Under the pieces are notes generated by a model. That model saw only the letters and a list, made by a program, of their open reading frames with translations, made no database searches and had not been told where the DNA came from. DNA of 48,672 nt from Candidatus Fermentibacterota bacterium (GTDB lineage: Bacteria > Fermentibacterota > Fermentibacteria > Fermentibacterales > JCC-6), in NCBI GenBank assembly GCA_014728175.1, contig WJMA01000038.1:1-48672 (forward strand), read 5' to 3'. A program made the position numbers and the translations under genes. This document shows positions 8,624-17,834 of the stretch, piece after piece (the first letter of the stretch is position 1; each line of letters starts with the position of its first letter).

Positions 8624-10021
8624 TCAGTCCCTGGCCTCCCTGGCTACACGGAAGCCAATTCCCGGTGAGGAACCGGTTTGCAGGTAACTGCTTCGGGAGG
8701 CCGACCTGCAACCCGCCGACGAGTTCCTGGAGCTTCCACCCCTGACCACCCGGATGGAGTCGCCATTCTCGGCCGTTCGGGGCTCACCGTCCGGGGGTGC
8801 GTCTTGGTAATCCGGCCGGTACGGATCCTCACACCATTCCAGCACGTTGCCCACCATATCGTAAAGACCCCAGGGATTGGCGGTCTTCAGCCCGACCGGA
8901 TGGGTCCGGCCGTCGGAGTTGGCCTGGTACCAGCAGCGGCTTCCCATCTCCACGGCGGCCGAATCATCTCCCCAGTAGTAGGCGGTCTGGGTTCCCGCCC
9001 GGCAGGCGTACTCCCATTCCGCTTCGCTGGGAAGCCCGTAGATGTGGGTGCTATCCATCGCATTCAGGCTATCCATGTACGCCCGGCAATCGACCCAGGA
9101 TACGTTCTCCACCGGGCAGGCTTCCATGACGTGGTAGGAGGGGTTGCTCCCGGCAACCCTCTCCCACATCTCCTGGGTCACCTCGGTGGTCATCAACTCG
9201 AAGGCATCGACCTCCACCCGGTGCCTGGGGCTCTCGTCATCGTCCCTACCGGGCTCGGACTCGGGCGATCCCATGAGAAAGCTGCCCGAAGGTACGTAGC
9301 TGAAGGTCATGCCCTCAACGGGTCCATCGGAAAGATCTCCCGCGACGGGCCCTGTCGGCTCGTCGGGCAGTGGTTGCTCGGATACCTTGGTGGTGTCGTT
9401 CACCGCCGGACCCGTCGGGCCACTTCCACTTTCGCTGAGGGCCAGGGCCAGCACCACGGCCACCGCCGCCACGGGCAGGCCAACGTAGGCCAGTTTCTTC
9501 AGAAAGTTTCCGGCCCTTGCGGACTTGGGCTCCCGGGCCGGTTTCATTCCCCACCCGTAGAGGTTTCCCTCCCCGGAGACATCCCTGCCTTCCGGCTTCT
9601 TGGCAGGACCCTCGGCCAGGCCGAGGTTCGTCTTGATGGTGGGTACCAGCCGCGCCAGGTTCTCCTCCAGGTTCCCGGAGAAGACCTCCTTCCACTGGTG
9701 GCTGCTAAGGTAGTACTCCATGGCCCTGGCCGGCTCGACGTCCTCTATCTTCACCGGGTAGATGGGTACCCTCTTGTCCACAGCCCGCTCCACCTCCCGG
9801 AGCACCTGGGGAGAATCGTTGGCGCTCTCGGAGAAGACCAGGAGCATGGCCGAGGCCTCCTCGATTGCGTCCAGTATGGCCTCCGCCCATTGAACTCCCA
9901 GGGGGATGTCCCTGGGTGCTATCCAGCACTTGATACCTTCCCTCTCGAAGTACTCGAGTATGCGGGAGGCCGGCTCCTCATCCTTGGAGGAATGGGCCAG
10001 AAAGACGTGTGTAAAGGTCAT
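8624..10021 (-). CDS. TIR domain - transmembrane helix - SUMF1 (FGE-type) domain protein
   Basis: A 465-residue three-part protein. Residues 1 to about 130 form a TIR_2-type domain (FLAHSSKDEEPASRILEYF, CWIAPRDIPLG, LLVFSESANDSPQVLREVERA with a candidate catalytic Glu, then YPVKI). A linker with one hydrophobic helix follows (AYVGLPVAAVAVVLALAL, about 175-195). The C-terminal half is a formylglycine-generating-enzyme-like (SUMF1/C-lectin) domain: YVPSGSFLMGSPESE, TTEVTQEMWERV, LPSEAEWEYACRAG, WGLYDMVGNVLEWCED and GCRSASRS ending IGFRVARE. The topology suggests a cytoplasmic TIR and an exported SUMF1 domain. TIR domains often act as NADases in bacterial immunity; these fused SUMF1 domains often look like binding modules. 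It starts 43 bases after the large surface-protein gene and has a GGGGAG RBS. Confidence 0.85.
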   Translation of the reverse strand: MTFTHVFLAHSSKDEEPASRILEYFEREGIKCWIAPRDIPLGVQWAEAILDAIEEASAMLLVFSESANDSPQVLREVERAVDKRVPIYPVKIEDVEPARAMEYYLSSHQWKEVFSGNLEENLARLVPTIKTNLGLAEGPAKKPEGRDVSGEGNLYGWGMKPAREPKSARAGNFLKKLAYVGLPVAAVAVVLALALSESGSGPTGPAVNDTTKVSEQPLPDEPTGPVAGDLSDGPVEGMTFSYVPSGSFLMGSPESEPGRDDDESPRHRVEVDAFELMTTEVTQEMWERVAGSNPSYHVMEACPVENVSWVDCRAYMDSLNAMDSTHIYGLPSEAEWEYACRAGTQTAYYWGDDSAAVEMGSRCWYQANSDGRTHPVGLKTANPWGLYDMVGNVLEWCEDPYRPDYQDAPPDGEPRTAENGDSIRVVRGGSSRNSSAGCRSASRSSYLQTGSSPGIGFRVAREARD

Positions 10022-12101: not shown

Positions 12102-13334
12102 CTACTCCGTCAGCACGACCTTCACGGTAAGGGCAGCATCTTCTATCCGGCAGCTGATAAGGTACACGCCGGGGTCGAGAGAGCTGAGATCCACTCCCAG
12201 AGTATGTGTTCCGGGACGGAAGCTTCCGGGAGACTCCCTGTGAACGCACCGACCCTCCATGGAGAACACGCCTATCTCCACCTGGCCCCGTCTGGGGAGA
12301 TCCAATGACAGACGTATCGAGCCCGTGGTGGGATTTGACCCGGCCAGGCTCATCCCGAATGCCCCTGTAACCGAAGTGCTTTGGCCGCCGGATACGCCGG
12401 TGGGGTAGGCGAGATATTGGTAAACGTAGCCATCGTAGTCGCTGGCCAGAATATCCGGATAGCCGTCCTCGTCCCAGTCGTCCACCCAGATCCTGGCACC
12501 GTAGTAGAGGTCTATGTCGGAGCCTTCGCTCTGCAGCCGCTCCGATCCGTTGAACTCCGGGTCCGCATTGGTTCCCACGTTCTCGTAGTAGTAGATGTAT
12601 CCGTTGTTCTCCGCGGCCAGCAGATCCTTTTTGCCGTCGCCGTTCATGTCGTGGACCTGTGGGCAGCACCGGTAATGGGAGATGTTGCTTCCGCCGCTGG
12701 TAATGTAACTGTAGTCGGTGAAGGTGGGGTCCCCCGGAGTACCGGAGTTCAGATAGAGTCGAATCGAACCCGGAGATGAACTCTGCTGCCCGACTATCAG
12801 ATCGTGCAGGCCGTCCTCGTCCCAGTCGACCACCACCGGCGACGAGTTGTAGCCTACGTCGATCGTGGTGCCGTTCGCCCGTATGTCGGGCTCCTCGGTG
12901 AGAGTGATGTCGGTGTCAGAGGTTCTACGGAAGTAGTTGATGTAGCCGTTCCTGTCGCCTACTATGATGTCCAGCAGACCGTCTTCGTTCCAATCCACAA
13001 CCTGTGGATTCGTTGCCCCCGTGCATCAACCGGATGGGACGGAGATACGGCCGCCATCGGCCTCTATGTACTCGTAACCATCGAACACGGGCGAATCGTT
13101 GGTGTCATGGTTGGCGTAGAAACGGATGTACCCGCTGCTGAATTGGCCCAGTACCAAATCCTTGTAACCGTCAACATCCCAGTCGACCACGCAGGGGGCC
13201 CCGTAGTAGCCGACATCGATCTCCGACCCGCCGGAGTGGATCGAATATTGGGGCCCGTAGTCGGGCGGGCTTGCCCAGACCACCCCAGAAACGACCAGTA
13301 ACCAGGCGAAAGCAAAGGGAAGAAGCGTCCGCAT
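12102..13334 (-). CDS. Secreted VCBS/FG-GAP-like repeat protein with in-frame UGA: candidate selenoprotein
   Basis: Read through the TGA at 13028-13026, this is one 410-residue protein. It has a GAGG RBS, a signal peptide (MRTLLPFAFAWLLVVSGVVWA), five repeats of about 60 residues with a D-x-N/D-x-D-G-x-x-D-L/I motif (calcium-binding VCBS/FG-GAP type), and a T9SS/FlgD-like C-terminal domain (about 330-410). The UGA is residue 103 in repeat 2: ISVPSG-U-CTGATNPQVVDWNEDG. Repeat 4 has Cys223-Cys224 at the matching place (ISHYRCCPQVHDMNGDG); repeats 1, 3 and 5 have neither. Frame and repeat pattern continue unchanged beyond the UGA, and a SECIS-like hairpin follows. The second part has no RBS or signal peptide of its own. 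Alternatives are a nonsense mutation or a sequencing error. Confidence 0.7.
12992..13010 (-). promoter_or_regulatory. SECIS-like hairpin downstream of UGA
   Basis: On the coding strand, 15 bases after the in-frame TGA, a perfect 7-bp stem AATCCAC/GTGGATT closes a 5-base loop AGGTT. The GGU of the loop starts 23 bases after UGA. In the E. coli fdhF SECIS a similar small hairpin with an AGGUCU loop puts GGU about 18 bases after UGA for SelB to bind. Size, spacing and loop sequence fit a bacterial SECIS; SelB binding is inferred. Confidence 0.6.
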
Positions 13335-13451: not shown

Positions 13452-14837
13452 CTATCTCACGTAGCCCAGATCACGTAGCTCCTGTTCGACCGCGTTCGTC
13501 CAGGGCACCGGATCCGGCTTGCCTTCGGGTGGAGTCGCCCAGTACTCCAGGACCTTGGCGAGCAGGGCGCTGTCCGGCCGAAGAGGTTCCATCTCCATGC
13601 TGTCCGAGGCCTGATCGTACATGTAAGAGCTGTCGGTATCGGCGTCCCAGATCACCTTGGTATCCAGCCTCCTCACGCACGCTCTGAGGCTGCTGCCCAA
13701 ACCACTGGCGGGAAGCGTGCGCACGGAGCGGTCGGAGGGAGATAGCAGGTTTCTTCCGGATAGCTCGTCGGGAACCTCGACCCGCGCCGCGGACAGGACG
13801 GTGGGCATGATGTCGATATTGCTTACCAGCATGGTGTCGACCCTTCCCTGCCGCACGCCGCAACCGGCAAGGATCAGGGGGACCTGTAGCAACTCGGCGT
13901 GGAGAGTGTGGCCGTGCGCGAACTTTCCGTGGTCGGCGAACTCCTCGCCGTGGTCTCCGATAACTATGACCAGGGTAGTATTTGCGAGGCCTTTTGCCCT
14001 AAGGGCCTGCATCAATCTACCCAGCTGGGCGTCCGTGTACGCCAGCTCGCCGTCGTACAGGTTGACCAGGTTTCGCACTCCGGCGGAATCCACGGTAATC
14101 ACCCCGGAGTTGGCGTCATCCATGTCGCTGCGCATCCCCCATTCGCTATCGAACCTGCCGTCGTAAGCCGGGTCCGTCCAGATGGTATCGTACGGAGCCG
14201 GTGGATCGTACGTGGCATGGGGGTCGAAGAAGTGGATGGCCACGAAGAAGGGCTCGTCTTCCTCCCTGCCGTCCAGCCAGGAAAGCAGCGCGTCCACGGT
14301 CTGACCGGCGGTTCTGCTGTTGCAGAGCTCCACCAGTCCCTCGCAGTCGAAGTGGTCGAAACCCCTATGAAAGTTGAAATGCTCGCTCATGTAAATCACG
14401 TTGAAGAAAGCCGCCGTGTTGTATCCGTGCCGGCTCAAGAGTATGGACAGGAAGGGAAGGTCCAGGTCGACGCCGTAAAAGGTCTTCTCCTGCAGCCGGG
14501 CACGATGTGTCCGTTCGGTCATGCCTGTGAAGATCGAGGTCATCGAAGGAAGGGTCCAAGGGCTTCCGCTCATAACCCGGGAGAATCTGGTTCCCGCCTC
14601 GGCCAGGCTGTCCAGATTCGGCGTAGTAGCCCGGTGGTAGCCGTAGCAGCCTACGTGGTCTGCTCTGATGGTGTCGATGAGTACCAGAAGGATGTTGGGC
14701 CTTTCTTCGCGGCCGCAACCGCAAAGGACGAGAAAAAAAACCAGCCCCCAGAAAAGAAAGGTCGTGAAGGGCCGTTTTTCGCCGCGACCGCATCGCCCGC
14801 GAGCCAGAAAACCTCGAACATCCGGAAAGAACCGCAT
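13452..14837 (-). CDS. Sulfatase/alkaline-phosphatase-superfamily lipoprotein
   Basis: A 461-residue exported hydrolase. The N-terminus is a long basic stretch, a hydrophobic helix and a lipobox (FLVLCGC), so it is probably lipid-anchored. Metal-site motifs are plain: NILLVLIDTIRADHVG at the start of the domain and VIVIGDHGEEFADHG with GHTLH later. The nucleophile region is SGSPWTLPSMTSIFTG, with a Thr (WTLPS) instead of the C/S-x-P-x-R of formylglycine sulfatases. It therefore needs no FGE maturation and more likely acts on phosphate or phosphonate-type esters. The family C-terminus (ELRDLGYVR) is intact. It is divergent from nothing obvious and stands alone between two secreted-protein genes. 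Confidence 0.83.
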   Translation of the reverse strand: MRFFPDVRGFLARGRCGRGEKRPFTTFLFWGLVFFLVLCGCGREERPNILLVLIDTIRADHVGCYGYHRATTPNLDSLAEAGTRFSRVMSGSPWTLPSMTSIFTGMTERTHRARLQEKTFYGVDLDLPFLSILLSRHGYNTAAFFNVIYMSEHFNFHRGFDHFDCEGLVELCNSRTAGQTVDALLSWLDGREEDEPFFVAIHFFDPHATYDPPAPYDTIWTDPAYDGRFDSEWGMRSDMDDANSGVITVDSAGVRNLVNLYDGELAYTDAQLGRLMQALRAKGLANTTLVIVIGDHGEEFADHGKFAHGHTLHAELLQVPLILAGCGVRQGRVDTMLVSNIDIMPTVLSAARVEVPDELSGRNLLSPSDRSVRTLPASGLGSSLRACVRRLDTKVIWDADTDSSYMYDQASDSMEMEPLRPDSALLAKVLEYWATPPEGKPDPVPWTNAVEQELRDLGYVR

Positions 14838-15567: not shown

Positions 15568-15595
15568 TTGACATCACCGGAGGCAGAAACATAAT
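15568..15595 (+). promoter_or_regulatory. Promoter of the cobalamin-riboswitch operon
   Basis: A consensus -35 TTGACA (15568-15573) is followed after 16 bases by CATAAT (15590-15595), one mismatch from TATAAT. It lies about 20 bases before the aptamer, exactly where a riboswitch leader would start. No experimental support; the boxes are directly visible. Confidence 0.6.
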
Positions 15596-15611
15596 TGATC
15601 CCGCATAATAA

Positions 15612-15745
15612 TCGGTTGCGGGTGCAGGAAGACGGTGAGAATCCGTCACGGTGGCGCCACTGTAACCGGGGACCTAGTCCCAAGAGCCACTGCCCGAGGG
15701 TGGGAAGGCGGGACGAGGGTGGATCCGGGAGTCAGGACATTGCGC
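15612..15745 (+). ncRNA. Cobalamin (B12) riboswitch aptamer
   Basis: The conserved blocks appear in order: GGTGCAGGAAGACGGTGAGA, AATCCGTCACGGTGGCGCCA followed by CTGTAA, then AAGAGCCACTGCCC, GGGTGGGAAGGCG and the closing GAGTCAGGAC. This is the B12-box pattern of cobalamin riboswitches that bind adenosyl- or other cobalamins. It lies between a promoter and an intrinsic terminator in front of a TonB receptor, so B12 binding should stop transcription of the uptake operon. High confidence in class; the preferred cobalamin form is not determined. Confidence 0.93.
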
Positions 15746-15800
15746 CGCGACTGCGATCGGGTAATCCCCCCGCTCAGGGGGATCCGGTCTGAACACCCGC

Positions 15801-15843
15801 CTCCGACCGTTGGTAGAGCGTCTCTACCGGTTGGGGGTTTTTT
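15801..15843 (+). terminator. Riboswitch-controlled intrinsic terminator
   Basis: The arms CCGACCGTTGGTAGAG and CTCTACCGGTTGGGGG form a long hairpin around a CGT loop, followed directly by a run of seven T. It is the expression platform of the cobalamin riboswitch. The T-run merges with the probable TTG start of the TonB receptor, so the terminator and translation start region nearly coincide. Confidence 0.85.
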
Positions 15844-17834
15844 TGCTGGGCCAAATCGTTCTGCTTTCGCTGCTATCGGGCATTGCCTCCTGGTCGCTTT
15901 CCGTCACCGACCCTTCGGGCAATCCGGTCCGGGGCGCTTCCATAATCGACCCGGGTGAGGGTCGGTCCGAACAGGTGCTTCTGGGTACGACCGACTCCCT
16001 GGGCAGGTTCAAATCCCCGGGGGAGCCTCCGGAAACCTGCTTGATCAGACAGCCGGGATTCCGCCCCCTTCTCTTCCTTCCCCGGGAATCCCACAGCACG
16101 GTAAGAATGAGCGTACTGCCGGTTTCATCCGGTGTTCTGATCGAGGTCAGGGCCGAACGCTACGGTTTGCGCGACCTGGCCGGCTTCTCCACGACCACCG
16201 TAGACCGAAAGACCGCCCCTCTTCTCGAGAACCTGGGCCTATCCTCCGTGGAGGCTTACTGCCCGGGTATCAACGTCAGGGAGTACGGGGGGGCGATTCC
16301 CGTGCTATCCGTGGCCGTCAGGGGAGCCGATCCCGGACAGATCAGCTACTCGGTAGATGGACACGACATCTCCAGCGTTCTGGATGGAGCTCCCGGGGAG
16401 GGGATAGATCCTGCGCTTTTCGGCTCGGTGGAGGTGGCCAGGGGGGGGAGTTCCGCATTCCGCTCCGGCGGCATGGCGGGCTCGCTCTGCTTCACGCCGG
16501 AGGCGCCATCCGGCCCGGCATCGGTAAGCATCGGAGCGGATCACAGGGGAGGAGCCAGGATAATCTCCAGCCTGGGCATCGACGATGTTCGTCTATCCTT
16601 TTCCGGCAGGAGGTCGACAGGAGCCGCCGATGCCAGCGAGGCGTACTCCGGAGCGGCCCTGATCACCCTTCTCAGGCCGGATCTAAGGCTGGGAATCCTG
16701 GGAAACGCCGCCTCCGGAGAGACCGAGGCACCCGATTGGAGCCCAGACGCCGACGGAGAGCGGGTGAGGAGCACGATAGACCTCTGGGGGGCTGCGTCGC
16801 CCTCCTCCTGGAATCTGGCCGGTGGGTTGCGGCTGGGCAGGATGAGGTACCACTCCACCAGCCCCGAGCCGGTGGACGACGTGCACAGGGAAGGACGGAC
16901 CGACGTATCCGTCTCCCGGATGGTTCTGGCCCCGGCCCTCTCCCCCGTTACGGTGGACGTGGGCGCCTCGTTGAAGCAGGAATGGGTGAGAAGTACCGCC
17001 CTGGGGAATCGAAGCAGGTCCGTTCTGGATGCGGGATTCACCGCGCAGGCGCTCTCGAACATCCCCCTGACAATCGCGGGCAAGTACCTGATTTGGCCCG
17101 GAGCCGGGCCGGAATGGGCCGTTCGGGCGGAGCTTTCGCGGGATATCGCCGATTCCTCCCTGATCCTGTCGGCCGCGGTCTGTAGGAACTTCCGCCTTCC
17201 CAGCTTCAACGACCTCTACTGGCCGGCAGACGCCTTCGCGGAGGGCAACGAGGATCTGGCCCCCGAGAGTGGTTGGGAGGCGGAGATGGGGCTGTCCTCC
17301 TCACCTACGAAATCGATGCGGCTGTCCGCAAGCGCCTTCTCGGCCCATACGAAGGATCTGATCATGTGGCTTCCGGCCGAAGGTGGGATATGGCGGCCGG
17401 AGAACGTATCCGAGTCACACAAGATGGGTTTGGAGACCTCCGCGTGGATAGGGCTGGATTCCGCTGTCGAGCTCTTGGCAAACCTGACCCTCCTCAGGGC
17501 GACCGACGAGACGGAAGGATCCACCAACGAAGGGAAGATCCTCCCTTACAGGCCTCAGGTCACATGGGGGCTGACGGGGATATGGAGAACGGATGCGCTA
17601 TCGGTCTCGGTACAGCTCCAAGCCATAGGCGAGAGGTTCACCAACCGTTCCCAGACGGCCAGTCTGCCCGGTTACCGGCTGGCCAACTGCAGGATCGAGT
17701 GTTCCCTGCCCTGGACGCCGCTCAGGGGCGAGCTGTGGTGCGAAAACGTGTTGGACGAGTACTACGAGGAAAGCGTCGGCTACCGGGGTCGGCCCCGCAC
17801 GGTGGGACTGGCCCTGACCTGGAAAGGAAACTGA
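15843..17834 (+). CDS. TonB-dependent receptor, BtuB-like cobalamin transporter
   Basis: An outer-membrane receptor of about 660 residues. After the export segment (LGQIVLLSLLSGIASW) comes a small carboxypeptidase-regulatory-like domain (VTDPSGNPVRGASI to GTTDSLGRFKS). The TonB plug follows (APLLENLGLSSVEAYCPGIN, VAVRGADPGQISYSVDGHDI, VEVARGGSSAFRSGGMAGSL), then a beta barrel with NDLYWPADAFAEGNEDLAPE, typical of siderophore/B12 receptors. Riboswitch control makes cobalamin or a corrinoid the likely cargo. The start is uncertain: the frame is open from TTG 15810, inside the terminator hairpin; I prefer TTG 15843, just after the stem. The next gene starts 2 bases after the TGA stop. Confidence 0.85.
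   Translation: MLGQIVLLSLLSGIASWSLSVTDPSGNPVRGASIIDPGEGRSEQVLLGTTDSLGRFKSPGEPPETCLIRQPGFRPLLFLPRESHSTVRMSVLPVSSGVLIEVRAERYGLRDLAGFSTTTVDRKTAPLLENLGLSSVEAYCPGINVREYGGAIPVLSVAVRGADPGQISYSVDGHDISSVLDGAPGEGIDPALFGSVEVARGGSSAFRSGGMAGSLCFTPEAPSGPASVSIGADHRGGARIISSLGIDDVRLSFSGRRSTGAADASEAYSGAALITLLRPDLRLGILGNAASGETEAPDWSPDADGERVRSTIDLWGAASPSSWNLAGGLRLGRMRYHSTSPEPVDDVHREGRTDVSVSRMVLAPALSPVTVDVGASLKQEWVRSTALGNRSRSVLDAGFTAQALSNIPLTIAGKYLIWPGAGPEWAVRAELSRDIADSSLILSAAVCRNFRLPSFNDLYWPADAFAEGNEDLAPESGWEAEMGLSSSPTKSMRLSASAFSAHTKDLIMWLPAEGGIWRPENVSESHKMGLETSAWIGLDSAVELLANLTLLRATDETEGSTNEGKILPYRPQVTWGLTGIWRTDALSVSVQLQAIGERFTNRSQTASLPGYRLANCRIECSLPWTPLRGELWCENVLDEYYEESVGYRGRPRTVGLALTWKGN

Follow-up and report, generated by a model that had tools for sequence, protein, structure and literature searches.

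We analysed a 48,672-nucleotide (nt) stretch of DNA from a Candidatus Fermentibacterota bacterium (contig WJMA01000038.1, positions 1 to 48,672; hereafter the window), with attention to a minus-strand gene at 13334-12102 whose reading frame contains a single in-frame TGA. The features of this candidate selenoprotein gene, including a putative selenocysteine insertion sequence (SECIS) and a tail of the type IX secretion system (T9SS) kind, are as follows.

13334-12102, minus strand: candidate selenoprotein gene of 410 codons plus stop, with UGA read as selenocysteine (Sec; U103)
13026..13028, minus strand: predicted Sec codon UGA (U103), shared at this column by 92 of 94 aligned rows (a one-residue shift counted as a match) and by 24 of 24 TGA-bearing members from a second phylum
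13011..13025, minus strand: spacer of 15 nt from UGA to hairpin, coding for Cys104-Thr-Gly-Ala-Thr
12992..13010, minus strand: putative SECIS hairpin AATCCAC-AGGTT-GTGGATT, inside the codons Asn-Pro-Gln-Val-Val-Asp-Trp
13269..13334, minus strand: signal peptide, approximately residues 1-22, judged by eye and a low-confidence N-terminal helix in the AlphaFold2 model
12396..13265, minus strand: predicted five-repeat propeller domain, approximately residues 24-313, with a DW-[DN]-x-DG-type motif in every repeat
12114..12335, minus strand: predicted C-terminal secretion (T9SS type A) sorting domain, residues 334-407, immunoglobulin (Ig)-like

Re-reading of the minus strand bears out the layout given in the first-pass annotation of this DNA. 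As claimed there, the frame is open except for the TGA at 13028-13026, the next codon is TGC (Cys104), and a perfect 7-bp stem with an AGGTT loop begins 15 bases downstream (13010-12992). The signal peptide and repeat 1 precede the TGA, while repeats 2-5 and the sorting tail follow it, an arrangement with which the profile matches agree. The same annotation placed a second pair, Cys223-Cys224 of repeat 4, at the position matching Sec-Cys. This pair does exist, but the correspondence is loose, with CC abutting PQV and U-C lying several residues ahead of it. A selenosulfide between Sec and the repeat-4 pair was considered and rejected because the pair is not conserved, being found in only 25-29 of 94 homologues.

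The home genome encodes selA (507 bits), selB (348 bits), selD (325 bits) and a tRNA-Sec with anticodon UCA (74 bits; ARAGORN concurs). The selD gene (locus L016, 1501-2421), with the gene for tRNA-Sec some 700 nt upstream on the same contig, is itself a selenoprotein gene. It carries one in-frame TGA (CAGUAGK) followed by CCGGCC-AGGTT-GGCCGG, and the selD and candidate hairpins fold nearly alike, each with a small 3-bp hairpin followed by a 7-8 bp stem with a GGU triloop in the same register. Across the phylum selA was detected in 38 of 42 genomes, including 24 of the 24 near-complete ones, and selB is also present in the Zixibacteriota metagenome-assembled genome (MAG) that provided entry to a second phylum.

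Homologues were sought with a query in which U was replaced by C. Matches occur in 39 of the 42 genomes of the home phylum (the Ca. Aegiribacteria group), and 36 of the 42 contain at least one TGA-bearing member. After removal of duplicates the home phylum holds 93 UGA-bearing genes, seven of them in the home genome, and all 93 have the UGA in the same motif, mostly [YS]G-U-C-[TC]-G-[AS]-T-NPQ-[VA]-VD. The second (Zixibacteriota-type) phylum contributes 24 genes from 11 of 39 genomes, with the same UGA and then Cys. Across the homologous stretches there are 96 in-frame TGAs in 37,611 codons, one per gene at the Sec site, with one odd gene set aside from this count. At one locus (L083; G007:C24) the extracted frame has three further TGAs past the Sec column, probably because it overruns the gene end or changes frame.

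Residues other than U occupy the Sec column in 2 of 94 aligned rows, one being Glu-Thr in a tandem copy of genome G016 and the other Cys (L093). In the tandem copy (L027; G016:C35:13819-15000) both Sec and Cys are lost (PYGETTGATNPQ) beside an intact Sec copy, which constitutes a natural loss event. The numerous Cys homologues usual for selenoproteins were not found among the homologues of the 42 genomes, L093 being the one clear case, and the second phylum showed no Cys in place of Sec. The Cys that neighbours Sec mostly follows it, and precedes it in a small subgroup (CUPKTGA). Because this Cys is variable while Sec is almost never replaced, Sec rather than Cys is the constant feature of the family.

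Divergence between close pairs at third codon positions is 0.332 before the UGA and 0.336 after it, compared with 0.129 and 0.090, respectively, at second positions. This dominance of third-position change beyond the UGA indicates that the downstream part is translated and under selection. In a tree of the family the home-phylum members form a moderately supported cluster (83/95; 84% of bootstrap trees). Wholesale recent exchange is thus not indicated, although at this level of support the deep split of the tree is not firm.

Published criteria for bacterial SECIS elements call for a stem of 4-16 bp, a loop of 3-9 nt with G in its first two positions, a distance of 16-37 nt from UGA to loop, and a minimum free energy (MFE) of -7.5 or lower (PMC13188914). 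The candidate falls within all of these limits, with a 7-bp stem, the 5-nt loop AGGUU 22 nt from the UGA and an MFE of -12.5, as do 111 of 121 rows (a few duplicates included; simple MFE folding). For this one sequence, 2.7% of synonymous versions would form all seven pairs, and its folding energy neither stands out nor proves the hairpin (z between -0.6 and -2.0, according to the stretch folded). What places the hairpin far beyond chance is its conservation across homologues. The four inner pairs form in 97 of 97 genes (93 from the home phylum and four of the Zixibacteriota MAG), compared with a mean of 12.5 and a maximum of 26 expected from 1000 synonymous codon draws, and all seven pairs form in 19 of 30 distinct hairpin versions. 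The spacer between UGA and hairpin measures 15 nt in 84 genes, 18 in seven and 12 in six.

Codon choice within the hairpin is restricted: only CCA or CCG is used for Pro, and only GTG or GCG for the second Val/Ala. Where the same motif occurs in other repeats of the same proteins, all codons are used and the pairs are mostly absent. The third base of the Pro codon covaries with the second base of the Val/Ala codon (A-U in 23, G-C in four and G-U in three distinct versions), and an outer pair of the hairpin likewise covaries. The covariation score exceeds those of all 500 shuffles, a control uncorrected for relatedness, and of all slid controls. The same covariation is seen in the second phylum (11 A-U, five G-C and one G-U).

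The first-pass annotation had proposed that the UGA codes for Sec, and those of its checks that sequence data can address support this proposal. All four of selA, selB, selD and a UGA-decoding selC tRNA are present in the home genome, aligned homologues keep the UGA column near-invariant rather than filled with random residues, and the hairpin is both conserved and covarying in homologues. Judged from sequence, the UGA is almost certainly decoded as Sec, and the product of 13334-12102 is very probably a secreted selenoprotein.

The repeats match FG-GAP_3 (PF13517) at 2e-17 and 64 bits, well over the gathering score of 26.9. The sorting tail scores 25.8 bits with TIGR04183 (cut-off 23) and 26.8 bits (6e-6) with Por_Secre_tail (PF18962), just under the Pfam cut-off of 27, and the home genome encodes SprA, the T9SS translocon (417 bits). 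The combination of a sorting tail and an encoded SprA suggests that the protein is likely exported to the cell surface. An AlphaFold2 model built with 50 family members (predicted local distance difference test score 91.5) shows blade-like strands that recur between a signal helix and an Ig-like tail. Its best Foldseek matches in the PDB are mostly propeller-containing proteins, including BBS subunits, a KICSTOR subunit, CRTAC1 and GH43-type enzymes, all with low TM-scores. Five repeats were counted from five conserved D-x-x-x-D-G blocks, and Sec103 falls in the loop just before the strand at 108-113, which would be the loop into the first strand of repeat 2. Both the blade count and the exact Sec site are inferred from sequence and secondary structure. 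In propellers the ligand face, close to the central channel, is usually made up of the loops that enter the first strand of each blade.

These features suggest a path from gene to product. SelB carrying Sec-tRNA(Sec) would bind the hairpin just 3′ of the UGA and insert Sec at position 103, whereupon translation would carry on through repeats 2-5 and the sorting tail. The resulting protein would then be exported and placed at the cell surface by its type IX tail, with Sec probably exposed near the central channel on the ligand face, usually beside Cys (U-C, or C-U in a subset). In anoxic, sulfide-rich surroundings it might there act as a selenol/thiol redox centre outside the cell, with small oxidants, polysulfides or disulfides as its targets. 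This redox role for the Sec/Cys centre is put forward tentatively, by analogy and at somewhat short of even odds, on the grounds that fast nucleophilic and redox reactions favour Sec over Cys. A named relative of these lineages comes from an anoxic lake rich in sulfide and polysulfide (PMC4846661).

Several observations weigh against parts of this proposal. In addition to the uncorrected relatedness in the shuffle control, the apical loop in the second phylum is AGAUG or GGAUC rather than AGGUU. The adjacent Cys is absent in about 5 of 97 genes, which have UA, UN or UG instead, so that the putative selenenylsulfide with Cys104 suggested in the first-pass annotation cannot be a requirement throughout the family. 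No solved relative was found by sequence (phmmer against PDB sequences), and no conserved operon points to a function, neighbouring genes being on the same strand about half the time.

The chief rival to a redox function is that Sec, with Cys, serves as a surface ligand for soft metals or metalloids such as Cu, Hg, As or Te. The vicinal Sec and Cys, the surface exposure and the many paralogues per genome (seven here) would suit scavenging, and metal-binding members exist among catalogued selenoproteins. However, no metal-handling neighbours were found, and other Cys columns peak at 42 of 94 rows, so there is no further conserved Cys ligand; we regard this role as possible but rather unlikely. 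An improbable alternative, though one compatible with a Sec-containing surface protein, is that the UGA acts as a selenium-status switch in which the Sec residue itself matters less. Low selenium would yield a secreted fragment of 102 residues and high selenium the full propeller, truncation being a regulated output. Every member does have the UGA between repeat 1 and repeats 2-5, but conservation extends to Sec itself and its GUC-[TC]-G context, and a fragment of one blade is unlikely to fold.

Decoding of the UGA as something other than Sec has far less to recommend it. Under a change of genetic code or leaky readthrough, UGA would be read as an ordinary amino acid, and the frame is indeed open under any UGA reassignment. 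Yet each gene has one UGA at one place with no scattered use, the genome contains the full Sec machinery, and a conserved SECIS shapes synonymous codon choice, all of which make such decoding very improbable. Although a gene whose frame is intact apart from a single stop has the classical appearance of a pseudogene or of an assembly or sequencing error, this explanation has practically no remaining likelihood and is already refuted by conservation of the UGA column. The same TGA occurs at the same place in more than 110 genes from two phyla, and beyond it third codon positions dominate the divergence.

The proposed Sec-containing propeller can be set against known systems. It shares with ordinary FG-GAP/VCBS propellers (PF13517) bearing a T9SS tail (PF18962/TIGR04183) the same repeats, fold, signal peptide and sorting domain, but adds Sec in the loop into repeat 2 and an intragenic SECIS. 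Adjacent chalcogen residues also occur in propellers with vicinal Cys-Cys, such as pyrroloquinoline quinone (PQQ) methanol dehydrogenase. This parallel is a lead only, as the candidate has no PQQ-domain match, contains Sec-Cys rather than Cys-Cys, and has no sequence relation shown to that enzyme. Among selenoproteins that use SelB and a SECIS (SelD, FdhA and the 119 catalogued families), the home selD has an AGGUU loop and loop position nearly identical to those of the candidate. Unlike these known proteins, the FG-GAP/VCBS family is multi-copy, secreted with a T9SS-type tail and nearly devoid of Cys forms, whereas almost all selenoproteins have Cys homologues (PMC9312934). The FCYXU type of TonB-dependent receptor and the GSU2204/MtrB-type selenoproteins are likewise located at or in the outer membrane, but they are beta-barrels with an unrelated domain and a different Sec motif (PMC13188914).

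Of the 119 families or subfamilies of prokaryotic selenoproteins in a 2026 inventory, none is an FG-GAP/VCBS or named propeller protein (PMC13188914). NCBIfam (June 2026) holds no matching selenoprotein model, and in the literature searched no paper joins FG-GAP, VCBS or propeller proteins with bacterial selenoproteins, although subscription journals were thinly covered and an earlier mention is possible. The statement in the first-pass annotation that no selenoprotein is known in this repeat family therefore agrees with the literature and model libraries searched, and these surface proteins apparently constitute a large, undescribed selenoprotein family of more than 100 members. Catalogued bacterial selenoproteins mostly have a thioredoxin fold or a metal centre, usually with Cys twins on which many prediction pipelines depend. 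A family with almost no such twins would be missed by these pipelines, and annotators would label a gene of this kind as two broken genes. The findings raise the question of which extracellular chemistry needs selenium in these lineages.

An open screen of the fetched DNA looked for TGAs that are flanked by open frame in both directions and matched by a TGA at the aligned position of a homologue. Its largest cluster was the FG-GAP/VCBS family (118 members, 117 of them with a SECIS-like hairpin). The screen also recovered selD and three further clusters that look real, while most small clusters lacking a hairpin look like antisense noise. One member of these additional clusters lies in the window.

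28645-27632, minus strand: second, unrelated candidate gene for a secreted selenoprotein, 337 amino acids, UGA at 28309-28307, motif STCUGSALYQSVTG
28295-28275, minus strand: 9-bp hairpin of this second gene, ATACCAGTC-GGT-GACTGGTAT

Its product, a DUF6923 repeat protein of all-beta type, carries a sorting tail and has Sec in a loop before a strand. All 42 genomes of the phylum have homologues, mostly with a single TGA, and each of the 38 rows read contains one U, which nearly always lies within CUG or GGUG. Six TGA-bearing copies are listed in the home genome, which brings its selenoprotein genes to at least 14 (seven of the FG-GAP/VCBS family, six of this second family, and selD).

Two other secreted types were found, each in only a few loci. 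The third is a kelch propeller, encoded at L173 on the minus strand (8506-7274 plus a second frame) and at L050, adjoining FG-GAP/VCBS family members. It has one in-frame TGA in the motif GGRDGCUGLRYCQVW, a CTGCC-AGGTCT-GGCAG hairpin (GCCAGGTCTGGC) and a sorting tail. The fourth, at L176 and L050 in several copies, is a protein whose fold was judged by eye to be beta-helix-like, with the motif USSCGGGGVHC and a GGT-loop hairpin after the TGA.

It appears reasonably likely that these organisms have a large extracellular selenoproteome, in which Sec, as a rule with a neighbouring Cys, was incorporated independently into a number of unrelated repeat scaffolds that are secreted, namely the FG-GAP/VCBS propeller, the DUF6923-like repeat, the kelch propeller and the beta-helix. 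If so, the many copies and the near lack of Cys counterparts would imply that extracellular Sec chemistry is essential to a lifestyle for which Cys is insufficient.

Sulfatases of the PF00884 type, of which the home genome has 11 full copies, adjoin three of its seven FG-GAP/VCBS paralogues (window 13452-14837, minus strand; L056, 5708-7084; L057, 8704-10068). A partnership with sulfatases was rejected as a conserved link, since 0 of 60 neighbourhoods in related genomes contain one. C25 peptidases are neighbours in some lineages only. Elsewhere in the window, a minus-strand gene at 8627-10021 encodes a TIR domain fused to an FGE-sulfatase-type (formylglycine-generating-like) domain, and a cobalamin riboswitch (72 bits) at 15587-15757 on the plus strand immediately precedes the gene for a TonB-dependent receptor (15810-17834).
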